In this document: in pieces, positions 44-32,237 of the stretch | How the letters are laid out: each line of letters begins with the position of its first letter | How positions within the stretch are numbered: the stretch's first letter is position 1 | Source: Candidatus Poribacteria bacterium | GTDB lineage: Bacteria; Poribacteria; WGA-4E; PCPOR2b | Length of the DNA stretch: 32,374 bases | Reading direction: 5' to 3' | NCBI GenBank assembly: GCA_021295755.1 | Contig: JAGWBT010000008.1 | Location: 1-32,374 of the forward strand | Translations under genes and position numbers: made by a program | The notes under the pieces: model-generated | The model's database searches: none | What the model was told of the DNA's origin: nothing | Seen by the model: the letters and a program-made list of their open reading frames with translations, nothing else

Positions 44-1180
44 ATGAACAACTCAAAAATAGATCGTATTGAATGCGTGCCGCTTGTTGGCACACGTCCA
101 CGGCAAGCGGGGTGTAATTCACGCCTACAGGTACATGGACTGCATGTGCGACCTCCCATTGCACGCATCACCACTGATGACGGTGCGACCGGTTTCGGTC
201 TGTCGCGTATGTCTGAGGAGGACGCCGCAGGGCTCGTCGGTGCTCCCTTGAGTGAGGCGTTTGACGCCGAAAACGGCGTCAGTGAACGCTTCCGTGCGCT
301 CGAATACCCGCTCTGGGATCTCGCTGGAAAACTGGCTGGAAAGCCGGTGTATGAGATGCTTGGTGGCGAACCCGATGCGGATGGTGTTTTCCGCGCACGC
401 TGTTACGATACGTCGCTGTATATCGACGACCTGCATCTAGCAGATGATAACGAAGCGGCTGCGTTGATTGCTTCCGAATCGTTAGAAGGCAAAGCACGGG
501 GACACAAAGCATACAAGATTAAGGTGGGGCGCGGTGCGATGCACATGCCGCTTGAACAGGGGACCCATCGCGATATTTTGGTGATCCGTGCTGTCAGGAA
601 CGCTGTCGGACCCGATGCTACCATCCTGATTGATGCCAACAACGGCTACAACCTGAACCTGACCAAGCAGGTGTTGAGCGAGACCGCTGAGGCAAAGGTG
701 TATTGGATGGAGGAGGCTTTCCACGAGGATGGCAGCTTCTACGCGAATCTGAAAGAGTGGCTCAATGCGGAAGGTATAGGGACGAAGATCGCTGATGGAG
801 AGGGTGGTGCTTCGCTCAATCTGCTCCAGTGGGCGGAGGAGGGGTTGGTCGATATTGTCCAGTACGACATCTTCCACCCCGGTTTCTCCCGTTGGCTAGA
901 GCTTGGACCCCAACTTGACGCGTGGAACGTCGGCTCTGCACCGCATCACTACGGCGGGCATTACGGCAACTATGTGTCGTGTCACCTATCTGCGGCGATC
1001 CAAGGGTTTGAGTTCACCGAATGGGACGAAGCGGACACCCCCGGCTTGGACGGCTCCGGATATTCAATCTCTGATGGTCTTGTCAGTGTCCCCAACTCGC
1101 CCGGTTTCGGTCTGAATCTGGACGCGGAGATCTATGCCCGCGCCGTCAAAGAGAGTGGATTTGATGTTCGGGCGGCGTGA
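44..1180 (+). CDS. Mandelate racemase/muconate lactonizing enzyme family protein (enolase superfamily)
   Basis: This 378-residue protein has the enolase-superfamily barrel layout. A KIK motif lies at residues 158-160. The three expected Mg2+ ligands are D197 (in IDANNGY), E223/E224 (in WMEEAF) and E253 (in DGEGG), and a histidine pair at 301-302 is a candidate general acid/base. Family members abstract a proton next to a carboxylate, usually to dehydrate or epimerise sugar acids; the substrate here cannot be read from sequence. The start is set by AAGGAG at 33-38, five bases before the ATG. The gene stands alone on this strand, with 261 bases to the next gene. It differs clearly from the ManD-type paralogue at 28527-29759, and its N-terminal capping part is short. 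Family is confident, reaction is not. Confidence 0.88.
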   Translation: MNNSKIDRIECVPLVGTRPRQAGCNSRLQVHGLHVRPPIARITTDDGATGFGLSRMSEEDAAGLVGAPLSEAFDAENGVSERFRALEYPLWDLAGKLAGKPVYEMLGGEPDADGVFRARCYDTSLYIDDLHLADDNEAAALIASESLEGKARGHKAYKIKVGRGAMHMPLEQGTHRDILVIRAVRNAVGPDATILIDANNGYNLNLTKQVLSETAEAKVYWMEEAFHEDGSFYANLKEWLNAEGIGTKIADGEGGASLNLLQWAEEGLVDIVQYDIFHPGFSRWLELGPQLDAWNVGSAPHHYGGHYGNYVSCHLSAAIQGFEFTEWDEADTPGLDGSGYSISDGLVSVPNSPGFGLNLDAEIYARAVKESGFDVRAA

Positions 1181-23609: not shown

Positions 23610-24380
23610 ATGTCCATCAATACCATAGACCAAGACTTTATTGATAAGGTCTCGGCAAAGGTTAGGCTTTTACCCGATGGCAAGGAGCGTTTCCGCGTTT
23701 TAACTCCCTTCCAGTTCGATGACGGCGATCAGCTGGTTATCATTTTGAAAAAGGCAGGCGAACAGTGGGTACTCTCTGACGAAGCGCATACCTACATGCA
23801 CCTCACCTACGATATTGATAAAAGGGACCTGCATAGTGGTACACGCGGAGATATTATCTCTAAGGCCCTTTCGATGTTTGACGTTCAAGATCGCAATGGA
23901 GAATTAATCCTTGATATGCCAGAGGAACGTTACGGTGATGCACTTTATGACTTTGCCCAAGCTCTTCTCAAAATAACGGACGTGACATATTTGTCGAGAG
24001 AACGGGTTCAATCCACATTTATGGAAGATTTCCGTACATTACTGCATAATAAAGTGGATGAGACTCGCATGATTTTTGATTGGTACTATTTAGCTCGTGA
24101 TGACCAAAGGAAATACATCGTAGATTGTCGAATTAATGGGATGCCTCAACCCCTTTTCGTGTATGCTCTTCCAAATGACAGTAGGATTCGCGATGCAACG
24201 ATTGCACTGCACCAGTTCAAGGAGTGGAAACTGTCTTTTAATGCTATGGGTATCGTTGAAGAGGAGAAGAACATAAATTACAAGGTATTGGCACGTTTCC
24301 TTGATGTATGCGATCAGTACTTCATAGGCATCAATGAAAGTTATGAACAAATTGGACAATATCTGGAGGCTAAGATTTAA
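23610..24380 (+). CDS. DUF1828/DUF1829 domain protein
   Basis: The 256-residue protein shows a DUF1828-type half (about 34-124) with FQFDDGDQLVIILKKAGEQWVLSDEAHTYMHL, RGDIISKALSMFDV and DALYDFAQALLKITD. A DUF1829-type half (about 155-245) follows, with YIVDCRINGMPQPLFVYALPNDSRIRDATIALHQFKEW. AGGAGG at 23596-23601 overlaps the stop of the DUF6978-like gene and sits eight bases before the ATG, so the two are an operon. The family is found in mobile and accessory gene sets and has no experimentally assigned role that I know of; a toxin-antitoxin-like or defence module is a guess. Its stop is only two bases from the convergent small gene at 24383. Confidence 0.8.
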   Translation: MSINTIDQDFIDKVSAKVRLLPDGKERFRVLTPFQFDDGDQLVIILKKAGEQWVLSDEAHTYMHLTYDIDKRDLHSGTRGDIISKALSMFDVQDRNGELILDMPEERYGDALYDFAQALLKITDVTYLSRERVQSTFMEDFRTLLHNKVDETRMIFDWYYLARDDQRKYIVDCRINGMPQPLFVYALPNDSRIRDATIALHQFKEWKLSFNAMGIVEEEKNINYKVLARFLDVCDQYFIGINESYEQIGQYLEAKI

Positions 24381-28526: not shown

Positions 28527-29759
28527 TCACGGACGAATTATTGTCCCGTCTGCCAGTCTCACATTACCCCACGACCAGTTAGAGCGTGCGGGTTCTGTGA
28601 TTGGGTACTTTGCCGCCAACTCCTCGTCTATATCTATGCCCAAGCCCGGCTTGCCGTTAGCCCACATATATCCATTACGGACTTCAGGCGTTCCGGGGAA
28701 CACTTCCTTCAGCAGATTGGTCTGATAGGGACCTGCCTCTTGGATGCCGAAGTTCCACACATTCAGGTCTAGCATCAGTTGGGCTGCGTGACCGACAGGA
28801 GAGACATCTGTGGGACCGTGCCAAGCGGTGCGGACGTTGAAGGCTTCGCAGAGCGCAGCTAACTTCCGCGCGGGCGTCAATCCACCGATTTGAGAGACGT
28901 GGACACGCATGAAGTCGAGTAGTCGGTCCTTGACCATCGGAATAATCTCGTGCGGATTGTTGTACAGTTCGCCCATAGCAATCGGTGTGCTAGTCTGTTC
29001 GCGCACTAGTCGGAAGTAGTCGTTGTCCTCCGGTGCGAAAAGATCCTCTAAGAAAAAGAGTCTGAACGGCTCAAGTTCTTTCGCCAAACCGAGTCCCATG
29101 ATCGGCGGGAGGCGCTCATGGACATCATAAATAACATCAACTTCCCAGCCGAAAGTGGACCGGAAATGCTCAAAGGCGCGCACGATGGTGCGAACCGATT
29201 TGGCTGGATCGTAGATGCTGCCGCTCGATTCGGAGACTTTGTTCGTGATGATGGGTTTCTCGCCATGTGGTACATCGTCTGCAAAGAAGCGGTCTGCGCC
29301 TCCAAGTTTGAAGTAACGGAAACCGTCTTCGATGAGCGCCCAGACATTTTCTTCATATTCTTTGAGGTCGTTTCCGCCCGGTACGATGTATACGGCGGCA
29401 GCCTCCCTCGATTTTCCACCGAATAGGTCGTAAACAGGCATTCCCGCAACTTTGCCTTTGATGTCCCATAACGCTTGGTCTACGCCGCTTATGGCGTTGT
29501 TGAGGATAGGTCCGTTCCGCCAGTAAGCAGATACATTGCACGACTGCCATATGTCTTCGATGTCAGCGGGATCCTTACCGATCAAAAACGGACGGAGATA
29601 ATCATTGACAGCGGTTTCGACGACAAGGGCGCGTTGGGTAAAAGTAGCACAGCCCAGACCATATATTTCCGGCTCATTGGTTTCTATTTTTACCACATTG
29701 AGGTTCGCTGTCGGCTGCGTCACAATGATACGAACATCACGAATTTTTAGATTGCTCAT
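28527..29759 (-). CDS. ManD/RspA-type sugar-acid dehydratase (enolase superfamily)
   Basis: The 410-residue protein has the metal ligands D212 (IYDVHE), E238 (FLEDLF) and E264 (GELYNN). H214 and H314 (WHGPTD) are catalytic candidates, in the arrangement of mannonate dehydratase ManD. E341 (IQEAG), the PEVRNGYMWANGKPGLGIDIDE segment and the ending NVRLADGTIIRP are also typical. ManD enzymes turn D-mannonate, and sometimes D-gluconate, into 2-keto-3-deoxygluconate, but many relatives have low activity, so the substrate remains open. AAAGGAG lies six bases before the ATG. It is placed between the Gfo/Idh/MocA gene (124 bases downstream) and pyrB (27 bases upstream). Confidence 0.9.
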   Translation of the reverse strand: MSNLKIRDVRIIVTQPTANLNVVKIETNEPEIYGLGCATFTQRALVVETAVNDYLRPFLIGKDPADIEDIWQSCNVSAYWRNGPILNNAISGVDQALWDIKGKVAGMPVYDLFGGKSREAAAVYIVPGGNDLKEYEENVWALIEDGFRYFKLGGADRFFADDVPHGEKPIITNKVSESSGSIYDPAKSVRTIVRAFEHFRSTFGWEVDVIYDVHERLPPIMGLGLAKELEPFRLFFLEDLFAPEDNDYFRLVREQTSTPIAMGELYNNPHEIIPMVKDRLLDFMRVHVSQIGGLTPARKLAALCEAFNVRTAWHGPTDVSPVGHAAQLMLDLNVWNFGIQEAGPYQTNLLKEVFPGTPEVRNGYMWANGKPGLGIDIDEELAAKYPITEPARSNWSWGNVRLADGTIIRP

Positions 29760-29786: not shown

Positions 29787-30866
29787 TCACACTTTAAGGA
29801 CGCCGCAATACGCACAAGCAGAGAACGGCGAGGCCCCGGCGATTATCTCCGTCTCAGGCTCCAAGTAACGTTCGTGGTTGCTAACGCAGTTGGCATTCTC
29901 GCATACCTGTTGATCCGATACCATCTTTCTCGTAGGCGGTTGCGTCAGAACCAATTGCTCAAGCCCCAACAAACTTGCGAGCAACGCCATCCGAATAGGT
30001 ACGGCGTTTGCAGATTGGTCAAAATACGCAGCACGTGCATCCTCATCTAACTCATAAGCTAGTTCATTCACCCGCGGCAGTGGGTGCATGATTATCGCAT
30101 CAGTTTTCGCGTAATCCATTATGGCTACATCCACAAGGTAGCTTCCTCGGGCATCTTCTGGAGAGATCTCCGGTGGTAGACGTTCTTCCTGGAGGCGATT
30201 CACATAGATGACATCAAGCTCACCAATCACGTTATTGAGCTGATTCGTCTCAGCGGGTTCCTGACCATAGAGATGTTTTAAGCGAGTAGAAACCCATTCA
30301 GGCATCTGAAATCCGTCGGGCGAGATATGTAGGAGTTTCCCACCGAATCGTGCGACACCGAGTGCAAGTGAATGCGCTGCACGCCCGTATCGCAGGTCGC
30401 CACAAATGCCAACCGTCAGTCCTTCTATCCGTCCTTTCCGCTGGAGGATTGTGTACAGGTCTGTGAGTGCTTGCGTCGGATGTCTGTGGCTGCCATCGCC
30501 GCCGTTGATCACCGGGACATTGGAATAGCGAGCCATAACGTGGGCCGCGCCCGCCCAGCTGTGGCGCACCACGATTAGGTCTGAGTAGTTGGTCACCATG
30601 CGAGCGGTGTCCGCAATCGTCTCGCCTTTTGCAACAGAAGCAGCGTCGGGATCTGCGAAACCGAGGGCACGCCCATCGAGCCGTCCTATCGCACTTTCAA
30701 AGGAGAGACGTGTCCGTGTACTCGGTTCATAAAAGAGCGTTGCTAGCAGTTTACCTTTACAGAAACCAGACCATGTCGCAAGCTGCGTCCGCATCTGATC
30801 TGCGAGCCGAAAAAGCTGTTCGATTTCAAAATTGGATAAGTCATCAAGCGTGATGAGGTGTCTCAT
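29787..30866 (-). CDS. pyrB: Aspartate carbamoyltransferase fused to a PyrI-like zinc tail
   Basis: From the ATG at 30866, with GAGG at 30874-30877, the product has 359 residues. The first 305 or so are a normal PyrB: STRTR at 49-53 binds carbamoyl phosphate, AKGET (79-83) holds the loop lysine K80, HPTQALTDL begins at 129, and HPLPRV is at 261-266. It condenses carbamoyl phosphate with aspartate in the second step of UMP synthesis. The extra C terminus carries C322, C327, C351 and C354, spaced CX4C-X23-CX2C, exactly as the zinc cysteines 109, 114, 138 and 141 of E. coli PyrI. The nucleotide-binding half of PyrI is absent, so allosteric control by CTP/ATP is not expected from this tail alone. 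Confidence 0.95.
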   Translation of the reverse strand: MRHLITLDDLSNFEIEQLFRLADQMRTQLATWSGFCKGKLLATLFYEPSTRTRLSFESAIGRLDGRALGFADPDAASVAKGETIADTARMVTNYSDLIVVRHSWAGAAHVMARYSNVPVINGGDGSHRHPTQALTDLYTILQRKGRIEGLTVGICGDLRYGRAAHSLALGVARFGGKLLHISPDGFQMPEWVSTRLKHLYGQEPAETNQLNNVIGELDVIYVNRLQEERLPPEISPEDARGSYLVDVAIMDYAKTDAIIMHPLPRVNELAYELDEDARAAYFDQSANAVPIRMALLASLLGLEQLVLTQPPTRKMVSDQQVCENANCVSNHERYLEPETEIIAGASPFSACAYCGVLKV

Positions 30867-30926: not shown

Positions 30927-31853
30927 CTATGGGACTTCAAGACTGCCCACCAATTCTATGATCGAGCGCATCCCATGCTGTTCGAGGTATTCTTGAATGC
31001 CGTCAACTACATCCAACGAGGCGCGTGGATTGATGAAATTTGCCGTCCCAACCGCAACGGCAGCAGCTCCCGCTATACAAAACTCAATAGCGTCATCGCC
31101 AGTCATGATCCCACCCATGCCGATGATTGGAATTTTGACAGCGTTGTAGACCTGCCAAACCATACGCAATGCGATTGGCTTGATTGCGGGTCCGGAAAGC
31201 CCTCCCGTGACGTTGGCGAGTTGGGGACGCCGGGTGTTGATGTCGACAGCCATTCCCAAAGCAGTGTTGATTACGGAAAGTCCATCTGCACCAGCATCCT
31301 CTGCAGCGCACGCGATGACGGTGATATCTGTGACATTCGGGGATAGTTTGACCAGTAATGGTAGGGTAGTTTTTGCCCTAACGCCTTTAACGAGTTCTTC
31401 GGTCAACTTTGGGTCAACGCCAAAGCTCATCCCGCCACTGTGGAGATTTGGGCACGAGATATTGAGTTCAATTGCCGCAACTCCATCGGCAGCGTCTAGC
31501 TTCTCTGTAACCTCCAGATACTCTTCCACCTGTTCACCGCAGATATTCACGATTACGGGCACATCGAAGTCGCTAAGGTAGGGCAATTTCTTATCGATGA
31601 ACCCGTCCACACCAACGTTTTGCAACCCAATGGCGTTGAGCATCCCCGATGGCGTTTCAAATATTCGCGGCATTGCATTTCCCGTCCACGGCACACTGGT
31701 AATACCCTTAACAACGACCGCACCGAGTTTGTTTAGGTCAATGAAATCCACGTACTCGCTGCCGTAGCCAAAAGTACCCGATGCTGTCATAACGGGATTT
31801 TTCATCTGGATACCGGCGATATTAATTTCAAGTGAAGGGTAAACGGTACTCAT
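30927..31853 (-). CDS. pyrD: Dihydroorotate dehydrogenase, class 1B catalytic subunit
   Basis: From ATG 31853, with GAGGG seven bases upstream, the product is 308 residues. Landmarks are NPVMTASGTFGYGSEY, VVVKGITSVPWTGNAMPRI, NAIGLQNVGVD, and NISCPN at 131-136 with C134 as the catalytic base. Cysteine, rather than serine, here marks class 1. KLSPNVTDI, VINTALGMAVD, GGLSGPAIKPIALRMV and GMGGIMTGDDAIEF follow. It oxidises dihydroorotate to orotate with FMN and passes electrons to the iron-sulfur/FAD subunit PyrK, whose gene is the partial CDS at the window end. The gene starts ten bases after the pterin dehydratase stop and is followed by pyrB after 60 bases. Confidence 0.96.
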   Translation of the reverse strand: MSTVYPSLEINIAGIQMKNPVMTASGTFGYGSEYVDFIDLNKLGAVVVKGITSVPWTGNAMPRIFETPSGMLNAIGLQNVGVDGFIDKKLPYLSDFDVPVIVNICGEQVEEYLEVTEKLDAADGVAAIELNISCPNLHSGGMSFGVDPKLTEELVKGVRAKTTLPLLVKLSPNVTDITVIACAAEDAGADGLSVINTALGMAVDINTRRPQLANVTGGLSGPAIKPIALRMVWQVYNAVKIPIIGMGGIMTGDDAIEFCIAGAAAVAVGTANFINPRASLDVVDGIQEYLEQHGMRSIIELVGSLEVP

Positions 31854-31863
31854 CTTTTTACCC

Positions 31864-32205
31864 TCACTCCGCATATAACGCATCCGTTTTTGCCGCCATG
31901 ATGAAGTCGTTCCGATGCAACCCTCGGATTTTGTGCGTCCACCATGTAACAGTCACCCTTCCCCACTCAGTCAAGAGCGCGGGATGATGACCTTCCTCCT
32001 CCGCCAGTTCCCCCACACGGTTTGTGAACGCCAAAGCTGGGGCGAAACCATCAAACTGGAAGAGTCGTTCCAACCGCTTAATCTCATCGCGCTCAATCAG
32101 CTGCCAATCTGAAACTTGTGGGTGATATTCCGCAATCTCTGCCGCAGTAACCTTCGGTGCGTCCCGCCGACAGGCAATACATTTCATTCCTGTCAAGGTT
32201 TCCAT
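31864..32205 (-). CDS. Pterin-4a-carbinolamine dehydratase-like protein
   Basis: The 113-residue product starts at ATG 32205, with AAAGGAG at 32214-32220 eight bases upstream. [25 protein letters not shown] holds the family active-site histidines H73, H74 and H91, and [35 protein letters not shown] is the preceding helix-strand unit. The enzyme dehydrates 4a-hydroxytetrahydropterin in pterin recycling; in bacteria lacking aromatic hydroxylases, members may act in folate or molybdopterin metabolism. An N-terminal CIACRRDAP segment with two cysteines is seen in several bacterial members. It lies inside the pyrimidine operon between pyrK and pyrD, which is an unexpected neighbour; no role in pyrimidine synthesis is known. 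Confidence 0.9.
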
Positions 32206-32237
32206 GATTAAATCTCCTTTCAAATTCTCTTTACGCG

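Follow-up and report, generated by a model that had tools for sequence, protein, structure and literature searches.

The aspartate carbamoyltransferase (ATCase) of a Candidatus Poribacteria bacterium ends in a tail homologous to the zinc domain of the ATCase regulatory chain PyrI. This architecture, PyrB-zinc, is not peculiar to the source organism but is shared by members of Dehalococcoidia, Planctomycetota and Clostridia and by a few Bacteroidales. We consider it probable that the allosteric half of PyrI has been lost repeatedly and that the zinc domain persists on the catalytic chain as a structural clamp, in an enzyme without nucleotide control.

The pyrB gene and its surroundings

The window, by which we mean the whole stretch of DNA analysed, comprises positions 1-32,374 of contig JAGWBT010000008.1 (C8 in our numbering) from Candidatus Poribacteria bacterium assembly GCA_021295755.1, a genome of 5.03 Mb that is 95.9% complete. 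Its relevant features are:

29787..30866, minus strand: pyrB, aspartate carbamoyltransferase with C-terminal zinc domain, 359 aa (ORF, TIGR00670, ATG start)
29958..30866, minus strand: catalytic region, residues 1-303, two carbamoyltransferase domains (PF02729 and PF00185)
29790..29915, minus strand: zinc domain, residues 318-359, homologue of the PyrI metal-binding domain (PF02748, AlphaFold2, Foldseek, hhalign)
29901..29903, minus strand: C322 codon (PyrI C109)
29886..29888, minus strand: C327 codon (PyrI C114)
29814..29816, minus strand: C351 codon (PyrI C138)
29805..29807, minus strand: C354 codon (PyrI C141)
30927..31883, minus strand: pyrD, dihydroorotate dehydrogenase (ORF; function named from sequence)
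31864-32223, minus strand: pterin-4a-carbinolamine dehydratase gene; lies upstream of pyrD, whose start, as called, it overlaps
28527-29759, minus strand: second enolase-superfamily (MR_MLE) gene, immediately downstream of pyrB and co-oriented with it
44-1180, plus strand: first enolase-superfamily (MR_MLE) gene
23610-24380, plus strand: DUF1828 protein, 256 aa

We place the start of pyrB at the ATG at 30866. An in-frame TTG two codons upstream (30872) is less likely, since in most relatives the alignment begins at residue 3 of the protein as extended to the TTG. The catalytic part is that of a conventional ATCase: TIGR00670 scores 312.7 bits against a cut-off of 236.95, and the STRT, HPTQ and HPLPR motifs are invariant in our PyrB alignment A2. 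The best phmmer match in the PDB is 1ml4 from Pyrococcus abyssi, followed by the PyrB proteins of M. jannaschii and Sulfolobus, so that the nearest solved catalytic chains are class B enzymes, which pair with PyrI, as opposed to class A enzymes, which form complexes with dihydroorotase or pseudo-DHOase. None of the matches listed reaches beyond residue 305. The pyrD gene lies 60 bp upstream on the same strand, and tblastn found a homologue near pyrB in 45 of 58 fetched poribacterial loci; of the fetched loci, just those of six close relatives have the pterin-4a-carbinolamine dehydratase gene near pyrB.

The tail is a PyrI zinc domain

The protein contains six cysteines (36, 155, 322, 327, 351 and 354), the last four of which lie in the tail. 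The first-pass annotation had claimed that these reproduce the cysteine spacing of PyrI, and the match is indeed exact: the tail reads CX4C-X23-CX2C, as do Cys 109, 114, 138 and 141 in the database sequence of E. coli PyrI. The homology could be traced well beyond the cysteines. PF02748 (PyrI_C) matches positions 29802-29903 with 24.2 bits in a whole-genome search, above its cut-off, and scores 20.9 bits on the window protein by hmmscan, just under it; among relatives that share the tail the score reaches 51.3 bits. When a profile of 74 tail sequences was compared with nine genuine PyrI proteins using hhalign, the probability was 98.6% (E 5.4e-16). Only the four cysteines are invariant in the tail alignment, with N28, E36 and Y57 (alignment numbering) nearly so. 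Together these correspond to the seven positions that are invariant in the zinc domains of the nine PyrI (C109, N111, C114, E119, C138, Y140 and C141). A phmmer search of the 56-aa tail against PDB sequences gave nothing useful, and profile and fold searches were needed.

Structure prediction led to the same assignment. AlphaFold2 modelled the full protein with a mean pLDDT of 92.4 and a pTM of 0.92, which would be higher than expected had a sixth of the chain been placed at random. Blocks of the tail reached pLDDT values of 83-94, and the tail modelled alone gave a mean of 81.0. Comparison of the tail model with 350,542 PDB chains using Foldseek returned ATCase regulatory chains (from M. jannaschii, Sulfolobus and E. 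coli) as all of the top 17 matches, with probabilities of 0.69-1.00, against 0.13 for the next match. The predicted fold thus agrees with the PyrI zinc domain in 17 of 17 credible matches. Because the domain is tiny the E-values are merely 0.05-1.5, and it is the ranking that carries the argument.

The allosteric half of PyrI is missing

The nucleotide-binding domain of PyrI (PF01948) is absent from the window protein, as the first-pass annotation had stated when it described the zinc domain alone as being attached, and it is absent from the genome as well. We infer from this absence that the enzyme would lack nucleotide control. The domain was likewise absent from 85 of 85 Poribacteria genomes, including 56 with completeness of 90% or more and contamination of 5% or less; the same search was positive in 7 of 14 control genomes, E. 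coli among them. The further suggestion that the tail might receive a separate PyrI partner is rejected on this evidence, with no stand-alone pyrI in the 85 Poribacteria genomes.

The same pattern extends beyond the phylum. PF01948 was found in none of 46 other tail-bearing genomes, whereas two Clostridium genomes without the tail, searched together with them, do contain it. Among fetched loci, a PyrI allosteric domain lay near pyrB in none of about 150 tail-bearing loci (including a few duplicates) versus 44 of 74 tail-less ones, a comparison in which phylogenetically independent pairs are too few for significance and the direction was never contradicted. The tail-less loci without a nearby allosteric domain mostly hold Chloroflexota PyrB of another group. 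Three clostridial loci (L102, L110 and L147), including that of Lachnospira eligens, have neither a zinc tail nor a nearby PyrI gene and possibly represent a further step of loss.

PyrB-zinc in other bacteria

A scan of GTDB genomes with the C-terminus of PyrB plus its tail returned 80 loci, of which 76 encode PyrB-zinc and four are tail-less. They belong to Dehalococcoidia/Chloroflexota, one planctomycetote, many Clostridia (Ruminococcus, Oscillospiraceae and Lachnospiraceae), five Bacteroidales and two Poribacteria. All extensions of tail length that we saw carry the four cysteines, and their invariance is therefore no product of the search pattern. In a survey with a model built from alignment A2, tails were recorded among class-B-like matches in 8 of 65 cases for Clostridia, 4 of 48 for Chloroflexota, 12 of 37 for Planctomycetota and 2 of 110 for Bacteroidales; these fractions are rough, as the model was built mostly from tailed proteins and class-B-like matches were judged by reading tables. 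Acetoanaerobium noterae DSL2 is a cultured bearer with a complete sequence.

Origin of the fusion

Trees of the catalytic domain indicate more than one event. On a 105-row tree the tail needs seven changes, at least four of them by starred branches, and an AU test rejects the grouping of all tails in one clade (p-AU 0.0003). A more careful 57-row tree requires four to five changes in its bootstrap trees, with 0 of 200 needing just one and two forced by starred branches. Poribacteria, Dehalococcoidia and the tail-bearing Planctomycetota form one group and Oscillospiraceae another, while tails of the Lachnospiraceae type are placed among Clostridia with PyrB and PyrI. Bacteroidales tails nest within Clostridia, which suggests horizontal replacement of the resident gene. 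In seven Bacteroidales loci (L094, L118, L125, L126, L139, L231 and L232) a clostridial-type PyrB-zinc stands in place of the usual PyrB and PyrI.

Of 66 clostridial tails, 60 are nearest to clostridial PyrI, as in the example pair of the L124 tail and L170 PyrI, the latter of which reads:

CKNPRCITTVEQEIEHIFKLTDKENKVYRCVYCETKA

In most tail-less relatives pyrI comes immediately after pyrB, so that a single in-frame deletion starting where pyrB ends and running through the whole allosteric domain would yield the fusion. This deletion route, and repeated gain rather than gain followed by loss, is how we would read the pattern, although gain and loss of the tail are not separated by the trees.

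A probable clamp on the catalytic chain

Under the reading that we favour, an ancestral pyrI beside pyrB would have lost its allosteric half, with the two reading frames joined, more than once in bacteria. The four cysteines would hold one zinc, and the domain would pack against the catalytic chain, on or close to the surface that the zinc domain of PyrI occupies in E. coli, stabilising the chain or the trimer in an active-like state. As the allosteric domain is missing, there would be nothing to dimerise trimers or bind ATP and CTP, and a trimer with hyperbolic, nucleotide-insensitive kinetics is expected.

The zinc domain of E. coli PyrI contacts the catalytic chain at an interface that includes rAsn111, rAsn113, rGlu142 and rLys143, and changes to these residues weaken either feedback regulation or the T state (PMC6981877). 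Of 146 distinct tails, 135 have Asn111, which suggests that contact with the catalytic chain has been retained. PyrI position 142 is acidic in Clostridia (64 of 64 distinct tails), Dehalococcoidia and Bacteroidales, and Gly replaces Glu/Asp in 49 of 56 distinct Poribacteria tails. PyrB proteins that pair with PyrI almost always have an acidic residue at catalytic position 109 (E. coli numbering); all 53 Poribacteria in which this position could be read have Ala. These two substitutions imply that the surroundings of the interface have drifted in Poribacteria, and the contact may differ there.

The interface residues also bear on the proposal that the tail builds a higher assembly, either by linking two catalytic trimers (c6) or by docking a pathway enzyme such as dihydroorotase. 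Regulatory chains bridge two trimers in E. coli, where rGlu142 and rLys143 contact the catalytic chain network (PMC6981877), the acidic residue at position 142 is constant in the clostridial tails, and DHOase is the bridging partner in other ATCases (PMC7053772). However, bridging in E. coli needs dimers of regulatory chains, and these form through the allosteric domain, which PyrB-zinc lacks. Most Poribacteria have Gly at position 142, and besides pyrD no conserved partner gene was noticed beside pyrB, in neighbourhoods that were viewed unsystematically. We regard this proposal as unlikely.

Conservation and selection in Poribacteria

The zinc tail is fixed in the whole phylum. PyrB was matched in 82 of 85 Poribacteria genomes, and each of the 54 poribacterial C-termini that we read carries the four cysteines, whose loss in close homologues would, according to the first-pass annotation, have refuted its proposal. 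The X23 spacer is not strict: it is 23 residues long in 48 of 56 distinct tails and 15-26 in the others. A dN/dS of roughly 0.1-0.2 indicates purifying selection on the tail. This selection is weaker than on the core, with close pairs sharing 59-94% identity in the tail against 92-98% in the core.

Further readings of the tail were weighed as well. A bolder version of our proposal holds that the zinc domain alone, retained in covalent attachment, sets the activity of the trimer or switches it (e.g. through zinc or redox state) as a substitute for nucleotide feedback, and would make PyrB-zinc a separate, repeatedly evolved ATCase class; we think it a long shot. A plain on/off sensor of zinc or thiol redox state replacing nucleotide control appears very unlikely. 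The four cysteine ligands are conserved across five phyla, and mercurials that attack the cysteines of PyrI dissociate E. coli ATCase, which gives the idea some foundation. Nonetheless, the same four cysteines are structural in PyrI, the sequence bears no mark of a switch, and selection on the tail is the weaker of the two parts. That the tail is an evolutionary leftover of little function would fit its faster evolution, but is hardly plausible for a domain with so low a dN/dS, with cysteines invariant across five phyla, and fixed throughout one of them. Finally, chance cysteines and an assembly or frameshift artefact near the tail can be dismissed, the former by the PF02748 match, the hhalign probability of 98.6%, the PyrI-only fold matches and the phylum-wide conservation, and the latter by the purifying selection on the tail and by its presence in each of the 54 poribacterial PyrB C-termini read; genomes assembled as one contig, G001 and G019 for example, have it too.

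Comparison with known ATCases

Three classes of ATCase have been described (PMC7053772), and PyrB-zinc shares features with each of the forms considered here while departing from all of them. With the class B enzyme of E. coli (PyrB6-PyrI6) it has in common the catalytic motifs, the cysteine spacing of the zinc domain and residues N111, E119 and Y140. It differs in carrying its zinc domain on the catalytic chain itself and in lacking both the allosteric domain and a separate pyrI; the PF01948 domain that a class B holoenzyme calls for is found neither in its own genome nor in any of the 85 Poribacteria. Fusions of the Thermotoga maritima type, described by Chen et al. 1998 (as cited in PMC4581275), likewise combine a regulatory part and PyrB in one polypeptide, but those enzymes are allosteric and carry the regulatory chain in full, whereas the window protein has the zinc half alone. 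Consistent with this, NF009916, the model for the full PyrB-PyrI fusion, scores 91.2 bits on the window protein against a cut-off of 800, matching the catalytic part and ending at residue 303.

Like the class C enzyme of Bacillus subtilis and the plant trimers, PyrB-zinc is expected to form a trimer without nucleotide-binding regulatory chains. Class C and plant ATCases, however, have no zinc domain, and the window protein does, which sets it apart from class C. In plant ATCase, Phe F161 of the CP loop binds UMP (PMC7878868). A plant-type UMP site looks absent from the window protein, in which the equivalent of F161 is Ala by motif counting.

The nearest analogue comes from the laboratory. Markby, Zhou and Schachman reportedly combined the catalytic trimer of E. 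coli with an isolated zinc fragment of PyrI. That complex too paired a catalytic trimer with zinc domains alone, but was artificial and non-covalent. In the open-access literature searched we found no description of a zinc-only PyrB fusion or of a Poribacteria ATCase, though subscription journals may hold an earlier one. No NCBIfam model names the architecture.

ATCase is the textbook allosteric enzyme, and PyrB-zinc is probably an unregulated form of it that is widespread but has yet to be characterised. If so, it would be a natural and recurrent form in which the half of PyrI that contacts the catalytic chain persists without the half that senses nucleotides, showing which half bacteria need, and it would be the genetic counterpart of the classic experiment with catalytic trimer and zinc fragment. 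Gut Ruminococcus and Oscillospiraceae, Dehalococcoidia and Poribacteria would then control pyrimidine synthesis elsewhere. In these groups, the plain annotation 'aspartate carbamoyltransferase' would hide a distinct architecture.

Extended forms of the tail

In Dehalococcoidia and many Planctomycetota, tail-bearing PyrB continues for 50-70 further residues beyond the zinc domain (loci L062, L060, L063-L068, L070, L181-L184, L211, L212 and L216-L218). This segment resembles the Ada metal-binding domain without its cysteines, with PF02805 matching residues 409-467 of L062 at E 0.036, below its cut-off. In one planctomycetote (G469:C329:6363-7505), PyrB and its zinc tail lie inside an open frame of 777 aa and may be fused to another part.
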